A DNA stretch of 64,000 nucleotides from Acidocella sp. KAb 2-4 (lineage in GTDB: Bacteria; Pseudomonadota; Alphaproteobacteria; Acetobacterales; Acetobacteraceae): NCBI RefSeq assembly GCF_020567705.1, contig NZ_JAJDJU010000001.1, positions 1-64,000 of the forward strand, given 5' to 3'. Made by a program: the position numbers and the translations under genes. Below the pieces are notes generated by a model, which worked only from the letters and a program-made list of their open reading frames with translations, was not told the DNA's origin and searched no databases. This document shows positions 5,951 to 29,826 of this stretch, piece by piece (position 1 is the stretch's first letter; each line of letters starts with the position of its first letter).

Positions 5951-7081
5951 ATGCCCGATGATCTCGCTCCGCTGATGCGCTCCTGGCGCCAGCATCTGCA
6001 TGCTCACCCGGAATTGTCGCTCCGCGAGTCAGCCACAGCCGCCTATGTCTGCGCCGCGCTCACGGCGCTGGGCGTGCCGCACATTGCGGGGGTTGGCGGG
6101 CATGGCGTGGTCGGCGTGCTCTCCCGCCCGGGCGCCGGCGCCGTGGGGCTGCGGGCGGATATGGACGCCCTGCCGATCCATGAGACCACCGAACTACCCT
6201 ATGCCTCGCGCCATGCCGGGGTGATGCATGCCTGCGGGCATGACGGGCACACCGCCTCGCTGCTCGGCGCGGCGGCCCTGCTGCGCGACGATCCGGCCTG
6301 GTCCGGCACCATCTATCTGGTGTTCCAGCCTGCCGAGGAGGGCTTCGGCGGCGCCGAGGCGATGCTGGCCGATGGGCTGCTGGCGCGGTTCCCGATGCAG
6401 CGCATCTTCGGCTACCACAACTGGCCCGGTCTGGAGGCGGGGAGCGTGATGCTGCACGAGGGGCCGGTCATGGCCGGGGCGGCGAATTTCTCCATCACCC
6501 TGCATGGCCGCGCCGGGCACGCCGCGATGCCGCATGAATGCGCCGACCCGGTGCAGGGCCTCGCGCACCTGATCCTCGCGCTCAACAGCATCACCGCCCG
6601 CAATAAAGACCCGCAGGAGGCCGGGGTGATTTCCACCTGCACGCTGGCGGCGGGCGAGGCGCGCAACCAGATCCCGAGCGCCGCCACCCTCGGCGGCACC
6701 ATCCGCGCGCTCACTCCGGCGACCATGGCGCTGCTCAAATCGCGGCTCACCGAAATCGCCCGCCACACCGCGCGCGCGCATGACCTCACCGCGGATGTGG
6801 ACATCTTCAGCAGCCTCGCCCCCACCATCAACAGCGCGGCGGAGACGGCCCTGGCGGCGCAGGCGGCGCGGGAGGCGGGGCTGCGGGTGGCGCTGGCCCA
6901 GCGCGGCTCCATGGCGGCGGAGGATTTCGGGCGCTTCCTGGAGGTTTTGCCCGGCGCCTATGCCTGGATCGGCAACGGCCCGAGCGCCCCGCTGCACAAC
7001 CCGGCCTATGATTTCAACGACGCCATCCTGCCCGTGGCGGCGCGCTATCTGGCCGCCGTGGCCAAGGTGGCGCTGATATGA
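5951..7081 (+). CDS. M20D-family metallopeptidase / amidohydrolase
   Basis: The 376-residue protein matches the hippurate hydrolase / N-acyl amino acid amidohydrolase (M20D) family. It shows the N-terminal RQHLHAHPELSLRES signature, GLRADMDALPI, the dinuclear metal-site segments HACGHDGHTA and FQPAEEGFGGAEAM, the dimerisation/lid segment GRAGHAAMPHECADPV, the SMAAEDFGRF motif and the C-terminal ligand region LHNPAYDFND. No signal peptide is seen, so it is likely cytoplasmic. The acyl-amino-acid substrate is not predictable from the sequence. Its TGA overlaps the ATG of the next gene, giving translational coupling with an FkbM-like protein. Confidence 0.88.
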   Translation: MPDDLAPLMRSWRQHLHAHPELSLRESATAAYVCAALTALGVPHIAGVGGHGVVGVLSRPGAGAVGLRADMDALPIHETTELPYASRHAGVMHACGHDGHTASLLGAAALLRDDPAWSGTIYLVFQPAEEGFGGAEAMLADGLLARFPMQRIFGYHNWPGLEAGSVMLHEGPVMAGAANFSITLHGRAGHAAMPHECADPVQGLAHLILALNSITARNKDPQEAGVISTCTLAAGEARNQIPSAATLGGTIRALTPATMALLKSRLTEIARHTARAHDLTADVDIFSSLAPTINSAAETALAAQAAREAGLRVALAQRGSMAAEDFGRFLEVLPGAYAWIGNGPSAPLHNPAYDFNDAILPVAARYLAAVAKVALI

Positions 7082-8253
7082 CGTGCGGCCCCGCCTGGCT
7101 GGCCGAATTGCCCGATTCGCCGGGGGAGCGTTTTGCCGCCGCCACCGCGGGGCGCTGCGGCTTGGTGGTGGTGCCCGTGACGCCGCGCCCGTTTCCGCTC
7201 TGGCTGCGTGCGGGCACCGCCGACGCGGAAGCGGCCACCGCCTCATTCGACCCCGAGCTGAACGGGCTGAAATTCGTGCATGAACCCCGCCGCATCCTCG
7301 AAATCGGGGCTGGCGCGGGCTTTCGCAGCGTGGCGCTGGCCCATGCCTATCCGGGTGCCGAAATCCTGGCCACCGAGCCCGATGCAGCGTTCCAGCGCGT
7401 GGCGCTGCTCAATACCTCGCCTTACGGCAACATCACGGTGCTCAACACGGTGATCGGCGCTGAGAACGCCCGCTACGATTTTTTCGGCCGCGAGGGCGAA
7501 GCTGGGCAGCCCGCGCTGGTGCGCCACGAAGCTGGGCAGCTCAAGGCGACCACGCTGGCGCAGCTGCTCAGCTATTGGCGCTGGCGTGATGTGGACACGA
7601 TCATCTTGAGCCCTGACATCGCCGCCTTGAGCGTTTTGGCGGAGCCTTTGCCGCCCCGTCTGCGCTTGCTGGCGGTGGAAACGCGCGGCGCCATGCTGCC
7701 CGCCGAACATATGGCGCATTTGCCCATGGCGGAGTTCCTTTGTGCGGTCTCAGGCGATTACACGCTCTTCTATCGCCGCGCCTTGCAGAAGGCGGTGCCC
7801 GAATTGCCGCGGCCGAGGCCCGTGTTCCTGCCTGATGGCACGCTTCAGCACCTCACGCTCATAAATGTCAGCGATGATCCGCCGGGGTTCTTCCCCCTGG
7901 GGCGCGAGGGGTTCCGCCTGCACCCCAACCCTGGCGGGGCGCCTGCCGCGCGGGTGGTGCTGAGCCTGCATCACCAGCGAAGCCATCTCGATTTCGCGGA
8001 ATTACAGGTGTCGATGCGGGTGGCGCGCCCCGATTCCGCGGCGGTGCGCTTCAAGGTCGAGGTGCGCGGCGAGGGCGGCACGGTGCTATCCTCGGGGGTC
8101 GAGGTGGTACCCGGCGGCAAGGCGCGTGGCATGGTGCTGCAACTGCCCGAGCTGGAGGGCGCGTGCCAGGTCACGTTCTCCACCGAGATGGCCGAGAGAG
8201 GCGCTTCCAACTTGGGCGCCTGGGCCGAGTTTGTGTCGGCAACCCTCGTATAG
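7078..8253 (+). CDS. FkbM-like methyltransferase-fold protein with C-terminal beta-rich domain
   Basis: I do not recognise this 391-residue protein as a named family member. Residues about 65-250 resemble a Rossmann-fold FkbM-type methyltransferase: motif I is RILEIGAGAGFRSVALAHAYPG, followed by ILATEPDAAFQRV and the FkbM-like DVDTIILSPDIA. Residues about 260-391 look all-beta (alternating hydrophobic strands such as RVVLSLHHQRSHLDFAELQVSMRV) and may be a sugar- or ligand-binding sandwich. It overlaps the amidohydrolase stop (ATGA) and ends three bases before recO. A 14-base direct repeat (7497-7510 and 7527-7540) encodes two EAGQ motifs. Function unknown; O-methylation of a glycan is only a family-level guess. 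Confidence 0.65.
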   Translation: MTCGPAWLAELPDSPGERFAAATAGRCGLVVVPVTPRPFPLWLRAGTADAEAATASFDPELNGLKFVHEPRRILEIGAGAGFRSVALAHAYPGAEILATEPDAAFQRVALLNTSPYGNITVLNTVIGAENARYDFFGREGEAGQPALVRHEAGQLKATTLAQLLSYWRWRDVDTIILSPDIAALSVLAEPLPPRLRLLAVETRGAMLPAEHMAHLPMAEFLCAVSGDYTLFYRRALQKAVPELPRPRPVFLPDGTLQHLTLINVSDDPPGFFPLGREGFRLHPNPGGAPAARVVLSLHHQRSHLDFAELQVSMRVARPDSAAVRFKVEVRGEGGTVLSSGVEVVPGGKARGMVLQLPELEGACQVTFSTEMAERGASNLGAWAEFVSATLV

Positions 8254-25759: not shown

Positions 25760-27215
25760 AGGGCGCTTTCAGCAAATCGGTGCCGATGAAGGTGGGGATC
25801 ACCAGCAGCGCCTGGCCGTGGAACCCCACAGTCAGTGCCGGGCCGGGCGCGAAGCTCTTGAAATCAGGCGCGAATCTGGCCGCCGTGGCGCTGGTGCTGC
25901 CGGGCATGGCGAGCACCAGGATGGTCTTGCCCAAGAGCGCGGCGGGCGGGGTGGAGATACCGAACTGGTGCGGGTCGTTATCGAACACCGTGACGGGCAG
26001 CGGCGAGTTGCGCAGCGCGTAGCCGATCTTCCCGGCATCGAACCATTTCTGCGCGGCCACCGCCTGCACGCCGGGCGGGATTTGCGCGGCCACGCTGTCC
26101 CAATCCACGGCCTGCAGCAGCGGCGATTTGCCGGGCGCGAACATGCGGTTCAAACCCGGAATGAAGCTGAAGGTGACCTCCGCCGCGATGATCATCGCCG
26201 CCGCCGCGAGCAGCGTGGCCGAGACGAGGGCCACATTGTCGCGCAGACGGGGGCGGAAATTCTGCGCCCAGGCGCCGAGCAGCGGGAACAGCATGAGATA
26301 GCCCGGCGCCGCCCAGTGGTAGAGGATATGGGTGGAGGACCACAGCCCGACCACCGCGAAGAGCAGCACCGGCGGCAGCGCCGCGCAGGCCAGCAGCCAG
26401 CCCTGCCGCCCAGCCGGGCCGCGCGCCAGGGCGCGCAACATCAGCCCCATCATTGGCAGCCAGAGCCAAGGCAGCACGAACAGCGCCTCGCCGCCCCAGA
26501 TGGTGAGCGGCATCAGCGGCCGCAGGCGCAGCCCCGTGGCGCGCCCGCCCTGATAGTGGAAGCTCGCCCAGCCATGGGTGGCGTTCCAGTACAGCACCGG
26601 GGTGAACAGCAGCAGCGCCAGCGCCACGCCCAGCCAAGGTTCGGCCCGGCGCAGCTCACGCCGCCCGGCGCCATCGGCCAGCACCGCCGCCGCCGCGCCC
26701 GCCAGCACCAGCGCGGCGTTGTATTTCGAGAGCATCGCTAGCCCGGCGCACAACCCCGCCGCCAGCCACCAGCGCGGCGCGGGGCGGGCATCGGGCAGGC
26801 CGAGGGCGCGGATCAGCGCATAGAGAAAGCCGAGCAGCGCGGCGTTGAGCGGTCCGTCGGGCAATACCCAGGCGCCGAAAGCCAGTGAAAATACTGGAGA
26901 GATGGAATAGGTCGCCACCGCCCAGAACCCGGCCCGAGCGCCATAAAGCCGCTTGGTGATGAGATAGAGCAGCCAGGACGACACGCCCGACAGCGCGACG
27001 AAGGGCAGGCGCACCACGATGGGCGCGGCGCTGCCGCTGAGCGCGCGCGCGCCAAGTTCTAGCCACCAGGAGGCGAGCGGATGGTCGAAATACGAGGCGG
27101 CGAAGCTGCGCGACGCCGCGACCATGTAGCTTTCGTCAATGCCAAGCCCGGTGAACCCTGCGAAGACCAGCCGGAACCCCAGCGCGATGACAACAACCCA
27201 GAATGCCGCGTTCAT
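25758..27215 (-). CDS. ArnT/PMT-like membrane glycosyltransferase (GT39-type)
   Basis: The 485-residue protein opens with a membrane segment (MNAAFWVVVIALGFRLVFAG) and the acidic loop GLGIDESYMVAASRSFAASYFDHP, which matches the first periplasmic loop of polyprenyl-phosphate-dependent glycosyltransferases where catalytic Asp/Glu sit. About ten further hydrophobic segments follow, then a soluble C-terminal domain (about 380-485). Such enzymes transfer sugars from undecaprenyl phosphate to lipid A or other acceptors in the periplasm; donor and acceptor are unknown. Start 27215 was selected at the Met before the first membrane segment; the frame upstream belongs to the neighbouring gene. It follows the oxidoreductase gene by 31 bases. 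Confidence 0.8.
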   Translation of the reverse strand: MNAAFWVVVIALGFRLVFAGFTGLGIDESYMVAASRSFAASYFDHPLASWWLELGARALSGSAAPIVVRLPFVALSGVSSWLLYLITKRLYGARAGFWAVATYSISPVFSLAFGAWVLPDGPLNAALLGFLYALIRALGLPDARPAPRWWLAAGLCAGLAMLSKYNAALVLAGAAAAVLADGAGRRELRRAEPWLGVALALLLFTPVLYWNATHGWASFHYQGGRATGLRLRPLMPLTIWGGEALFVLPWLWLPMMGLMLRALARGPAGRQGWLLACAALPPVLLFAVVGLWSSTHILYHWAAPGYLMLFPLLGAWAQNFRPRLRDNVALVSATLLAAAAMIIAAEVTFSFIPGLNRMFAPGKSPLLQAVDWDSVAAQIPPGVQAVAAQKWFDAGKIGYALRNSPLPVTVFDNDPHQFGISTPPAALLGKTILVLAMPGSTSATAARFAPDFKSFAPGPALTVGFHGQALLVIPTFIGTDLLKAP

Positions 27216-27246
27216 ACGCCGTGCATGGCCCGCGCGGGCGGAAAGC

Positions 27247-27957
27247 TCAAGAGCCGGAGAACCAGTTATAGCCCTGATCTTCCCAATATCCGCCGGGATA
27301 GATGTTGGTGACGGCGAGCTGCATGATCTGCTTGGGGTTCTTGAAGCCGAGCTTGGTGGGGATGCGCAGCCGCACTGGCGCGCCAAAGGCCGGGGTGAGC
27401 GGCTGGCCGAGGAATTGCAGCGCCAAAATCGTCTGCGGGTGCAGGGCCGAGGCCATGTCGATCGAGGAATAATAACCATCGGCGCAGCGGAAGGCGACGT
27501 AGCGGCAGGTAAGATCCGCCCCCACGCGGCGCAGGAAATACGCCAGCGGCACACCCGCCCATTGCCCGATCACCCGCCAGCCCTCGACGCAGACGAGCCG
27601 CGTGATCTGCCCCTGCTGCGGCAGGGCGTTGAGTTGCGTCAGCGTCCAGGGCGTTTTGTCAGCGATCTGCCCGCCCAGTTCGAGCTTGTAGGTCGCCGGG
27701 TCGATCACCAGCACCTGGCTGATGTCATAAAAGGCGTTGAAGCGTGGCGGCTGGGTGATCTGGTCGGGGCGGAAGGTGGGGGCCAGCGTATGCGGGTCGA
27801 ACAGTGCCGCCTGCACGCGGTCATTCCAGGCGGACATCATGTGCAGGAATTTATCCGCGAGGTCGGGATGATCAGGGTCTTCGAGGTCGCAGCCCGCCAG
27901 CGGGGTCGCCAGCCCCAGCGCCATGGCGCGCATCAGCAGATCGCGGCGTTTGGTCAT
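27247..27957 (-). CDS. Molybdopterin-dependent oxidoreductase, MsrP/sulfite oxidase-like, predicted lipoprotein
   Basis: The 236-residue protein contains an oxidoreductase-molybdopterin (SUOX-fold) domain. The presumed molybdenum ligand is the cysteine in TRLVCVEGWRVIGQWAGVPL, which aligns with the MsrP segment Cys-Val-Glu-x-Trp. The N-terminus has a twin arginine (TKRRDLLMRA) and an exact lipobox ending LAGC at Cys23, so it looks like a Tat-exported lipoprotein rather than soluble periplasmic MsrP. It has no C-terminal dimerisation domain and no heme-binding motif. Its ATG overlaps the stop of the cytochrome b gene (ATGA), so the latter is the likely electron donor. Substrate unknown; protein methionine sulfoxide is one option. 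Confidence 0.8.
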   Translation of the reverse strand: MTKRRDLLMRAMALGLATPLAGCDLEDPDHPDLADKFLHMMSAWNDRVQAALFDPHTLAPTFRPDQITQPPRFNAFYDISQVLVIDPATYKLELGGQIADKTPWTLTQLNALPQQGQITRLVCVEGWRVIGQWAGVPLAYFLRRVGADLTCRYVAFRCADGYYSSIDMASALHPQTILALQFLGQPLTPAFGAPVRLRIPTKLGFKNPKQIMQLAVTNIYPGGYWEDQGYNWFSGS

Positions 27958-28547
27958 GGCAGGCGCCCTCCGGTCAGCATCGGCGGCAATGTGCGCGGCA
28001 CCAGGGCGACGAGGATGAGATGCACCGCGATGAACAGCGAGATCACGCTCATGGCGGTGAAATGCACATAGCGCGCGGCGAAATACCCGCCGCAGAGATC
28101 GCACAGATACCAGAGCTGCACGGGCTTCCAGATCGCCAGCCCCGAGACCACGGCGACCAGCCCGGCCAGCAGCACCACCACATAGAGCAGGCGCTGTACC
28201 GCGTTATAAACGCCGCGCTCATGGCGCAGCTTCAGGGTGAGGGCGGCGGTGAAATCGTGCCAGACCTCGCGCGGGCGGATCGGCAGCAGCTTGCGGTAAT
28301 GGCCGGAGGCGAGGCTCCAGGCGGCATAGGCCAGCCCGTTGAGCACCAGCAGCCACATGCAGGCGAGGTGCCAGGCGATGGCCCCGGCCAGCCAGCCGCC
28401 AACGGTGATGGCGGAGGGGAAGGTGAAGCCGAAGAGCGGCGAGGCATCGTAAATCTGCCAGCCGGAGCCGATCATCATGATGATGGCGAAAGCGTTGACC
28501 CAATGCATTAGCCGCAAGGGCCAGGGATGGATGACCTGTTCGCGCAT
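27954..28547 (-). CDS. Membrane cytochrome b (b561/Ni-Fe hydrogenase cytochrome type), partner of the oxidoreductase
   Basis: The 197-residue protein has four main hydrophobic helices. Candidate heme-b ligands are His7 and His15 in IHPWPLRLMHWVNAF, the histidine in IAWHLACMWLLVLNG, and paired histidines in YVHFTAMSVISLFIAVHLIL. This is the bis-heme di-heme cytochrome_b561 layout, not the six-helix MsrQ fold. Start 28547 is preceded by CCAGGAGGAACGGGAC, a perfect ribosome site. It is coupled to the molybdopterin gene and would carry electrons between the quinone pool and that enzyme. Confidence 0.82.
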   Translation of the reverse strand: MREQVIHPWPLRLMHWVNAFAIIMMIGSGWQIYDASPLFGFTFPSAITVGGWLAGAIAWHLACMWLLVLNGLAYAAWSLASGHYRKLLPIRPREVWHDFTAALTLKLRHERGVYNAVQRLLYVVVLLAGLVAVVSGLAIWKPVQLWYLCDLCGGYFAARYVHFTAMSVISLFIAVHLILVALVPRTLPPMLTGGRLP

Positions 28548-28643
28548 GTCCCGTTCCTCCTGGCGGCAAAGGTGCCGCGAATGCTGATACGCGTCGAGGC
28601 ATCGAATGGATGCCCAAACGGCATTGGCCCCGGAGCGGGCAAG

Positions 28644-28670
28644 CCGGCGAGCCTCATCAGGCTCTGCCGG
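28644..28670 (-). other. Strong stem-loop between prfB and the cytochrome b gene
   Basis: In the transcribed (minus) sense CCGGC and GAGCC pair with GGCTC and GCCGG around TGATGA with a single bulged A, ten base pairs in all. It lies 25 bases after the prfB stop. There is no T-run behind it, so it could slow exonucleases, act as a weak Rho-independent terminator or mark a processing site. The rest of the 147-base gap holds only the ribosome site of the next gene. Confidence 0.45.
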
Positions 28671-28694
28671 GCGCAATTGGTCTCGTAGGCGCCG

Positions 28695-29826
28695 TTACTC
28701 GGCCATGGCCGAGGCTTCGGAGCGCGTCGCGCCCACCCGCCCCGCCAGCGACGCCGCCATGAACGGGTCCAGCGCGCCATCGAGCACCGCGGCCGGGTTG
28801 CCGCTTTCGTAGCCGGTACGCAGATCCTTCACGAGCTGATACGGGGCCAGCACATAGGAGCGGATCTGGTGGCCCCAGCCGATCTCGGTCTTGCTCGCCT
28901 CGGTCGCCGCCGCCGCCGCCTCGCGTTTCTGCAATTCCTGCTCATACATGCGCGCCTTCAGCATGTTCATGGCCGTGGCGCGGTTGCGGTGCTGCGAACG
29001 GTCGGTCTGGCAAGCCACGATGATGCCCGTGGGGATGTGGGTAATGCGGATCGCGGATTCGGTCTTGTTCACGTGCTGGCCGCCCGCGCCGGAGGCGCGG
29101 AACGTGTCCACCTTCAGATCCGCCGGGTTGATCTCGATCTCGATGCTGTCATCGACCACCGGATACACCCAGACGGAGGCGAAGCTGGTCTGGCGCCGCG
29201 CGTTGGCGTCAAACGGCGAGATGCGCACGAGGCGGTGCACGCCCGCCTCGGTCTTCAGCCAGCCATAGGCATTGGGGCCCGAGATTTGCAGCGACATCGA
29301 CTTGATGCCCGCCTGCTCCCCCTCGGATTCGTCCAGCACCTCGACCTTGAAGCCCTTGCGCTCGGCCCAGCGCATATACATGCGCGCCAGCATCTGCGCC
29401 CAATCCTGCGCCTCGGTGCCACCCGCGCCGGCGTTGATTTCCATGAACGCGTCGCGCCCATCCGCCTCGCCGGAGAGCAGGGATTCGATCTCCTTCTCCT
29501 TGGCGGTCTCGGCCAGGCGCTCCAGCGCGGTGAGGCCGTCCTTCACCATCGCCTCATCGGCCTCGGCCTCGGCCATCTCGATGAGTTCCAGCGTATCCTT
29601 GGTCTCGGTCTCGATGGCGCGCACGCCCTCGATCATCGAGGCCAGCCGGTTACGCTCGCGCATCACGGTCTGCGCGGCCTCGGCGTCGTTCCAGAGGTTC
29701 GGGTCCTCGGCGCGGTGGTTCAGCTCTTCGAGCTTGATGACAGCGGCATCCCAGTCAAAGATGCCTCCTCAGCAGGGCGACCGAGCGGCCGATCTGCTCA
29801 TTCAGTTGGTCGGATTCAGCGGACAT
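28695..29826 (-). CDS. prfB: Peptide chain release factor 2, expressed by programmed +1 frameshift
   Basis: The gene starts at ATG 29826 and reads 23 codons before an in-frame TGA (29757-29755). A +1 shift there continues for 353 codons to 28695, giving RF2 of about 376 residues. The long frame carries the RF2 stop-recognition tripeptide SPF (VRISPFDANARR) and the catalytic GGQ loop (ASGAGGQHVNKTES). RF2 ends translation at UGA and UAA. Read without the shift the gene would look broken, but the recoding site is intact, so it is not a pseudogene. It sits 66 bases after the PBP1a gene, in the alphaproteobacterial amiC-mrcA-prfB order. Confidence 0.95.
29754..29769 (-). promoter_or_regulatory. 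prfB programmed +1 frameshift site
   Basis: In sense orientation AGGAGG (29769-29764), CAT, CTT (29760-29758), TGA (29757-29755) and C. This equals the E. coli arrangement (SD-like hexamer, three bases, CUU UGA C). When RF2 is scarce the ribosome slips from CUU onto UUU and resumes at GAC, so RF2 controls its own level. Confidence 0.93.

Follow-up and report, generated by a model that had tools for sequence, protein, structure and literature searches.

What does a molybdoenzyme of the SUOX fold reduce or oxidise, and with whose electrons, when the cytochrome beside it is not the one that serves its counterpart in Escherichia coli? The question is raised by two overlapping genes of Acidocella sp. 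KAb 2-4, which lie in the first 64,000 nucleotides of contig NZ_JAJDJU010000001.1 (that whole stretch is hereafter the window). With the MsrP/MsrQ (YedY/YedZ) system of E. coli the pair has in common a SUOX fold, a predicted molybdenum-binding Cys accompanied by Glu and Trp, a Tat export signal, a membrane heme partner and the lack of a sulfite-binding Arg. It departs from that system in that the partner belongs to PF01292 rather than to PF01794, the family of E. coli MsrQ, in that the cytochrome gene comes first, and in that the enzyme bears a lipobox, a shorter C-terminus, an Ala in place of N89 and a position in a sister clade of MsrP.

The gene pair is real and conserved. Both genes lie on the minus strand at 27247-28547, exactly where the initial annotation had placed them, with the following features:

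27954..28547, minus strand: cytochrome b gene, 197 aa, PF01292 (prokaryotic cytochrome b561 family), first in the pair
28503..28505, minus strand: cytochrome His15, presumed heme ligand, invariant in both aligned sets
28368..28370, minus strand: cytochrome His60, presumed heme ligand, invariant in both aligned sets
28062..28064, minus strand: cytochrome His162, presumed heme ligand, invariant in both aligned sets
28020..28022, minus strand: cytochrome His176, presumed heme ligand, invariant in both aligned sets
27247..27957, minus strand: SUOX-fold molybdoenzyme gene, 236 aa, PF00174, in ATGA overlap with the cytochrome gene
27943..27948, minus strand: twin-arginine pair R4-R5, export signal read from the sequence, invariant in 57 proteins
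27889..27900, minus strand: lipobox L20-A21-G22-C23 read from the sequence, Lx[GA]C in 57 of 57 proteins, putative lipidation site
27739..27741, minus strand: F73, aligned with the Arg of SorA-type enzymes that we take to bind sulfite
27577..27591, minus strand: C123-V-E-G-W127, whose Cys aligns with Cys146 (mature Cys102) of E. coli MsrP, presumably the molybdenum ligand

The cytochrome gene opens with an ATG at 28547 and closes with a TGA at 27956-27954, while the molybdoenzyme gene runs from an ATG at 27957 to 27247, and the ATGA overlap reported earlier is indeed present at 27957-27954. Profile matches are well above their cut-offs for both the cytochrome (PF01292, 72.4 bits against 30.1) and the enzyme (PF00174, 94.7 bits against 24). 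The enzyme begins MTKRRDLLMRAMALGLATPLAGCD, which contains the twin-arginine pair and the LAGC lipobox; these and the Cys-Val-Glu-Gly-Trp site can be read from the sequence just as had been claimed. On the same strand, the upstream neighbour (28695-29666) is presumably prfB-like and the downstream one is, we assume, a membrane glycosyltransferase-like gene. A pattern search of 26900-29000 found neither sigma-70 promoter nor terminator patterns.

Is the enzyme simply an MsrP? Against the NCBIfam model for MsrP (NF003767) it scores 79.3 bits, below the cut-off of 207, and other NCBIfam models at E 1e-5 matched none of 57 aligned proteins of its clade. The phylogeny that the initial annotation had called for (116 sequences, LG+F+G4, rooted on SorA-type enzymes) puts it in a clade, here clade 1, which was represented by 47 of its 138 sequences, or about every third, L068-L073, L076, L078, L084, L127 and L156 having been left out before sampling. 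The 21 MsrP sequences are monophyletic (support 100) with the window enzyme outside them, and clade 1 (support 87) unites with clade 2, a set of remoter relatives, and with a number of fused proteins into one group (support 100) that is the sister of MsrP (support 99). The Cys, Glu and Trp of the Cys-Val-Glu-Gly-Trp motif are common to clade 1 and MsrP. The active site nonetheless differs from that of MsrP, because the position of MsrP Asn89 is occupied by Ala in all 47 clade-1 sequences, the window enzyme included; the C-terminal stretch that bears W290 in MsrP is absent from clade 1 in the alignment. An AlphaFold model of the enzyme (mean pLDDT 85.2) finds its best solved match in E. coli MsrP (E 8.8e-15, TM-score 0.59 by query length).

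The source genome (3,105,045 bases in 71 contigs, completeness 100) holds a single PF00174 gene, that of the window, and three PF01292 genes; a search of the whole genome for the MsrQ family PF01794 gave no match at E 0.001. A canonical MsrP with its MsrQ elsewhere, a reading that would have undone the initial annotation, was rejected on the cut-off score, the absence of PF01794 and the tree. Because the protein is distinct from MsrP and PF01794 is missing from the genome, the earlier reading stands on the points where sequence could have overturned it. Two MsrA genes are present, one of them apparently secreted, and MsrP was found neither here nor in any of the five Acidocella genomes sampled (E 1e-40), four of which carry an enzyme of the window type. 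The homologue of the molybdoenzyme gene in Acidocella facilis lies at 124366-125073 of NZ_JHYG01000007.1; in that species (L077:5708-6382) a secreted DUF1223 gene sits directly 3' of the enzyme gene, and a DUF1223 gene is also found upstream in some betaproteobacterial loci. Across the family, 85 genomes have the enzyme (counted at E 1e-50) and 55 of these also have MsrP, as do 131 of the 164 that lack the enzyme (p 0.013, ignoring kinship); across the class (E 1e-30) the figures are 8 of 26 and 207 of 359 (p 0.013, again ignoring kinship). Such mutual exclusion is a weak tendency from which we claim no replacement, and the enzyme is often no substitute for MsrP, since those 55 family genomes have both.

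Linkage to the cytochrome gene is nearly constant. Among 108 loci drawn from named genomes and a class-wide search, and including members of clades 1 and 2, the cytochrome gene lies upstream on the same strand in 106, at -52 to +173 bases before the rough start of the enzyme gene, and the other two loci start at contig ends. The family search gave 50 loci, of which 47 likewise have it; of the other three, L009 starts at a contig end, and in the stretches examined for L025 and L040 no cytochrome accompanies the enzyme. Pairs of this kind are found in Alpha-, Beta- and Gammaproteobacteria, lineages that are unevenly represented among the loci, with close species recurring. In five loci the two domains form a single PF01292-PF00174 chain of 580-607 aa with CIQGW instead of CVEGW (L055:2574-4355, L056:3949-5730, L057:2837-4576, L058:2976-4796 and L059:3095-4864; Pfam was run on two). 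The near-constant linkage and these fusions argue for electron transfer between enzyme and cytochrome.

The cytochrome itself was said to be a four-helix cytochrome b standing in for MsrQ, and both parts of that description hold: the adjoining partner is PF01292 and not PF01794, and its AlphaFold model (mean pLDDT 91.3) has four long helices at residues 9-35, 53-81, 116-140 and 155-182. His15, His60, His162 and His176 are invariant in 43 sequences chosen from 79 and in a separate set of 22, and by analogy with PF01292 relatives would bind two hemes. Family score, four conserved His and four long helices are together those of a quinone-linked di-heme cytochrome b. No solved structure matched the model at E 0.001; the nearest, both weak, were the cytochrome b of hydrogenase-1 (E 1.1e-3) and the gamma subunit of formate dehydrogenase-N (E 1.3e-3). 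A Streptomyces plasmid (L189:3881-5243) carries genes of both families in the reverse order, PF00174 ahead of PF01292; its enzyme groups elsewhere in the tree, with cytosolic-type proteins (support 99), and the pairing perhaps arose independently. A PF01292 neighbour does not by itself define the group, because this enzyme falls outside it.

The initial annotation conceived of a membrane-tethered enzyme fed by quinol, and the traits that such an enzyme would need, the lipobox and the linkage to a cytochrome, are conserved at the level of sequence. The LAGC lipobox follows the hydrophobic stretch of the signal, as in bacterial lipoproteins. In an alignment of 57 clade-1 proteins, a chosen subset of the window and 80 loci, R4, R5, L20 and C23 are invariant and the lipobox reads Lx[GA]C throughout, at a fixed distance from the arginines, the residue after its Cys being most often Asn (25) or Asp (15). 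A fixed pattern recovered the lipobox in 98 of the 108 loci. It missed seven in clade 2, some perhaps through a failure of the pattern, as well as L076, whose PLCGC lies outside the pattern, L127, which falls at a contig end, and L163, which lacks a Cys. The L163 enzyme (L163:1501-2196 region), a clade-1 member from a genome of 1.5 Mb, keeps the twin-arginine pair and lacks the lipobox Cys. Conservation of the lipobox shows that it is under constraint; Cys23 is a putative lipidation site.

What the enzyme might reduce is suggested by its neighbours in other species, where a short frame rich in methionine (at least 8 Met in 50 residues) immediately follows the enzyme gene, in the same orientation, in 35 of 134 clade-1 loci, all duplicate places being kept in this count. 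The opposite strand of the same stretch has such a frame in 5 of 134, control windows 2.5-3.3 kb further on in 0 of 82 on either strand, and clade 2 in 0 of 21 loci. Many of the frames start, to the eye, like signal peptides, and all five of the proteins tested, one of which (L123) sits upstream, exceed the cut-off of TIGR02953 (pentapeptide MXKDX). In a census of the 63 loci with full flanks among 89, we counted MXKDX in 23, a SigF-like factor in 12, NrsF in 10, MsrA in 4, a sensor kinase in 25, a regulator in 26 (24 of each divergent and upstream), a secreted DUF5666-like protein under the Pfam cut-off in 27 and DUF1223 in 5; nine had none of the neighbours sought. Neighbour clusters were built from raw open frames, some of them spurious, and named via representatives, with MsrA and NrsF named by Pfam. 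The DUF5666-like protein, of about 200 aa (L096:3566-4195 and similar), lies just 5' of the cytochrome gene and sometimes 3' of the enzyme. Representatives of the kinase and the regulator exceed the cut-offs of heavy-metal subfamilies, the regulator scoring 299.6 against the HprR cut-off of 353, and by sequence the two-component neighbours appear CopR/HprR-like. Of 127 loci searched for SigF-type promoter patterns, built on motifs given in the available text of PMC8315932, 16 have one in the 350 bases that precede the cytochrome gene and 8 have one in the first 140 bases beyond the enzyme gene; the reversed control gave 0 at both places. Some loci are duplicate places (L018=L079, L006=L077, L007=L078, L084=L156); the promoter count drops L006, L007 and L084, and the census drops L156.

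Beside the Acidocella pair itself the search found no MXKDX gene, MsrA, NrsF, SigF-type promoter or other sought neighbour. The genome does have a sigF/nrsF locus on another contig (L234:3832-5107 and 6059-7486), near which three SigF-type promoter patterns occur where shuffled sequence would give 0.01. Genome-wide, a stricter SigF pattern says little, because it occurs 5 times against 4 in the reversed control. The only TIGR02953 hit in the genome (15.9 bits, cut-off 41) was rejected as a methionine-rich partner; it looks like the start of a MerR-type regulator.

Taken with the methionine oxidation for which the relatives' neighbours argue, the pair is probably a quinol:methionine-sulfoxide oxidoreductase at the outer face of the inner membrane, its enzyme held there by lipid. 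The molybdoenzyme would be exported in folded form by Tat and kept beside the cytochrome by a lipid on Cys23; the cytochrome b would draw electrons from quinol and relay them through two hemes b to the molybdenum centre, where the metal bound by Cys123 would reduce methionine sulfoxide in envelope proteins. Where relatives have the methionine-rich secreted protein, as many do, it may serve as both oxidant sink and substrate, with MsrA present and control by SigF or by CopR/HprR-like regulators. Electron flow and its direction, lipidation and substrate are what we infer here, and the Acidocella pair presumably works as its relatives do, although the search beside it turned up none of their neighbours.

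The initial annotation had allowed for another substrate, an idea that loses ground: the MXKDX, MsrA and SigF/NrsF genes adjoining relatives' pairs point to methionine sulfoxide, and the sulfite-Arg position is a Phe. One could still suppose that the electron path is the same but that the enzyme acts chiefly on another compound, be it a nitrogen oxide, a chlorine oxide or a small S- or N-oxide, and on methionine sulfoxide only as a sideline, for the active site departs from MsrP at N89 and in the missing W290 stretch, no methionine-linked neighbour was found in the window, and a group 1A relative in Campylobacter is tied to nitrosative stress in the available part of PMC7759655. Set against the genes that adjoin the relatives' pairs, this seems to us rather unlikely. 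Electrons might instead run the other way, from sulfite through the cytochrome to quinone, and in the fold search SorA structures do rank next after E. coli MsrP, at a comparable TM-score (about 0.60 by query length) and a weaker E. That the pair is such a sulfite dehydrogenase is nevertheless very improbable indeed: the enzyme's weak scores against SoxC (36.5 bits), SorA (33.9) and SorT (19.6) fall far under the curated cut-offs of 420, 600 and 570, it lies outside SorA in the tree, and the column that holds Arg in 14 of 14 SorA-type enzymes, the only sulfite enzymes compared, holds Phe in 46 and Tyr in one of the 47 clade-1 sequences and Tyr in 21 of 21 MsrP. Cut-offs, missing Arg and tree likewise led us to reject a sulfite oxidase. 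As to the tether, the signal could be an uncleaved anchor, or the mature protein free in the periplasm, as might be argued from the seven clade-2 loci and L163 in which the lipobox pattern fails away from contig ends, several without any Cys there; we consider an unlipidated enzyme quite improbable given the invariance and fixed spacing of Lx[GA]C in clade 1.

A quinol-fed, lipid-held methionine-sulfoxide reductase is the preferred reading. A broader proposal is plausible, though we stop just short of favouring it: that a second system for reducing methionine sulfoxide with quinol, separate from MsrPQ, has spread through Proteobacteria and onto plasmids. In it a lipoprotein enzyme would work on a hydrogenase-type cytochrome b and, in the many species that have a dedicated methionine-rich secreted protein, would make up with that protein an oxidant sink at the membrane surface that can be recharged. 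If so, bacteria without MsrPQ, Acidocella among them, would keep respiratory-chain-driven methionine repair in the envelope by means of another cytochrome. One could then test directly how cytochromes of two unrelated kinds came to supply reductases of the SUOX fold, and whether a reductase tethered in this way works together with a methionine-rich protein as a scavenger of oxidants that can be recharged. This reading of the function is more specific than existing annotation, which in the records examined goes no further than labels like 'molybdopterin-dependent oxidoreductase' or 'cytochrome b/b6 domain-containing protein'.

How new is all this? The initial annotation's 'under-described' is fair, for this is a widespread but little-characterised sister group of MsrP, but the kind is not new: it is already known, as an MsrPQ homologue, because a review names a fitting group (PMC7759655) and a pair has been deleted in E. 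coli CFT073 (PMC8550376), as the available text of each tells. The former, after Kappler 2008, describes YedY-like 'group 1B' SUOX enzymes that differ from YedY in size and cytochrome and are thought to be reductases. The window pair, with its precursor of 236 aa and PF01292 partner, answers to this description of a smaller molybdenum subunit with a cytochrome other than YedY's, and we infer, the likeness being one of description, that its clade is group 1B. A literature search, mostly of papers free of subscription, found none tying the clade to PF01292 or to a lipobox. SigF regulons that include YedY or Msr genes are described for Caulobacter and Bradyrhizobium in the accessible parts of PMC3511200 and PMC3420878. 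For Azospira suillum, a system of sigF, nrsF, the methionine-rich gene MrpX and YedYZ is reported in the available portions of PMC4623255, PMC5748585 and PMC8315932 (and, via these, Melnyk 2015). An Azonexus locus (L139) has the same set, its YedYZ-like pair including a PF01292-type cytochrome, which suggests by analogy that the Azospira system may be of the window type. If Azospira YedZ1 is indeed a PF01292 protein, the function of the clade has already been demonstrated.

In CFT073, deletion mutants of c3566 and c3567 are sensitive to tert-butyl hydroperoxide, and the accessible part of PMC8550376 calls C3566/C3567 a putative Msr homologous to MsrPQ and c3568 a methionine-rich peptide. Cytochrome, molybdoenzyme, methionine-rich peptide and divergent two-component genes are the arrangement seen in relatives of the window pair, whereas the Acidocella pair is without such neighbours. 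We matched the three names to CFT073 genes by strain, order and annotation rather than by old locus tags; the molybdoenzyme that adjoins the divergent two-component genes shares 48% identity with that of the window. In the CFT073 record the cytochrome gene (L232:52-650) is marked as frameshifted, though the available text of PMC8550376 treats it as functional; in the copy of E. coli strain 536 the cytochrome is PF01292 and annotated as intact. A pair resembling a plasmid-borne one occurs in 350 of 5,426 E. coli genomes, at 288 chromosomal and 75 plasmid places. That plasmid pair (L183:6313-7693) has near-identical copies in 73 of the 5,426 genomes, on 74 plasmid records and, at that level of identity, never on a chromosome; in the record examined it adjoins IS26 and an IncFII repA.
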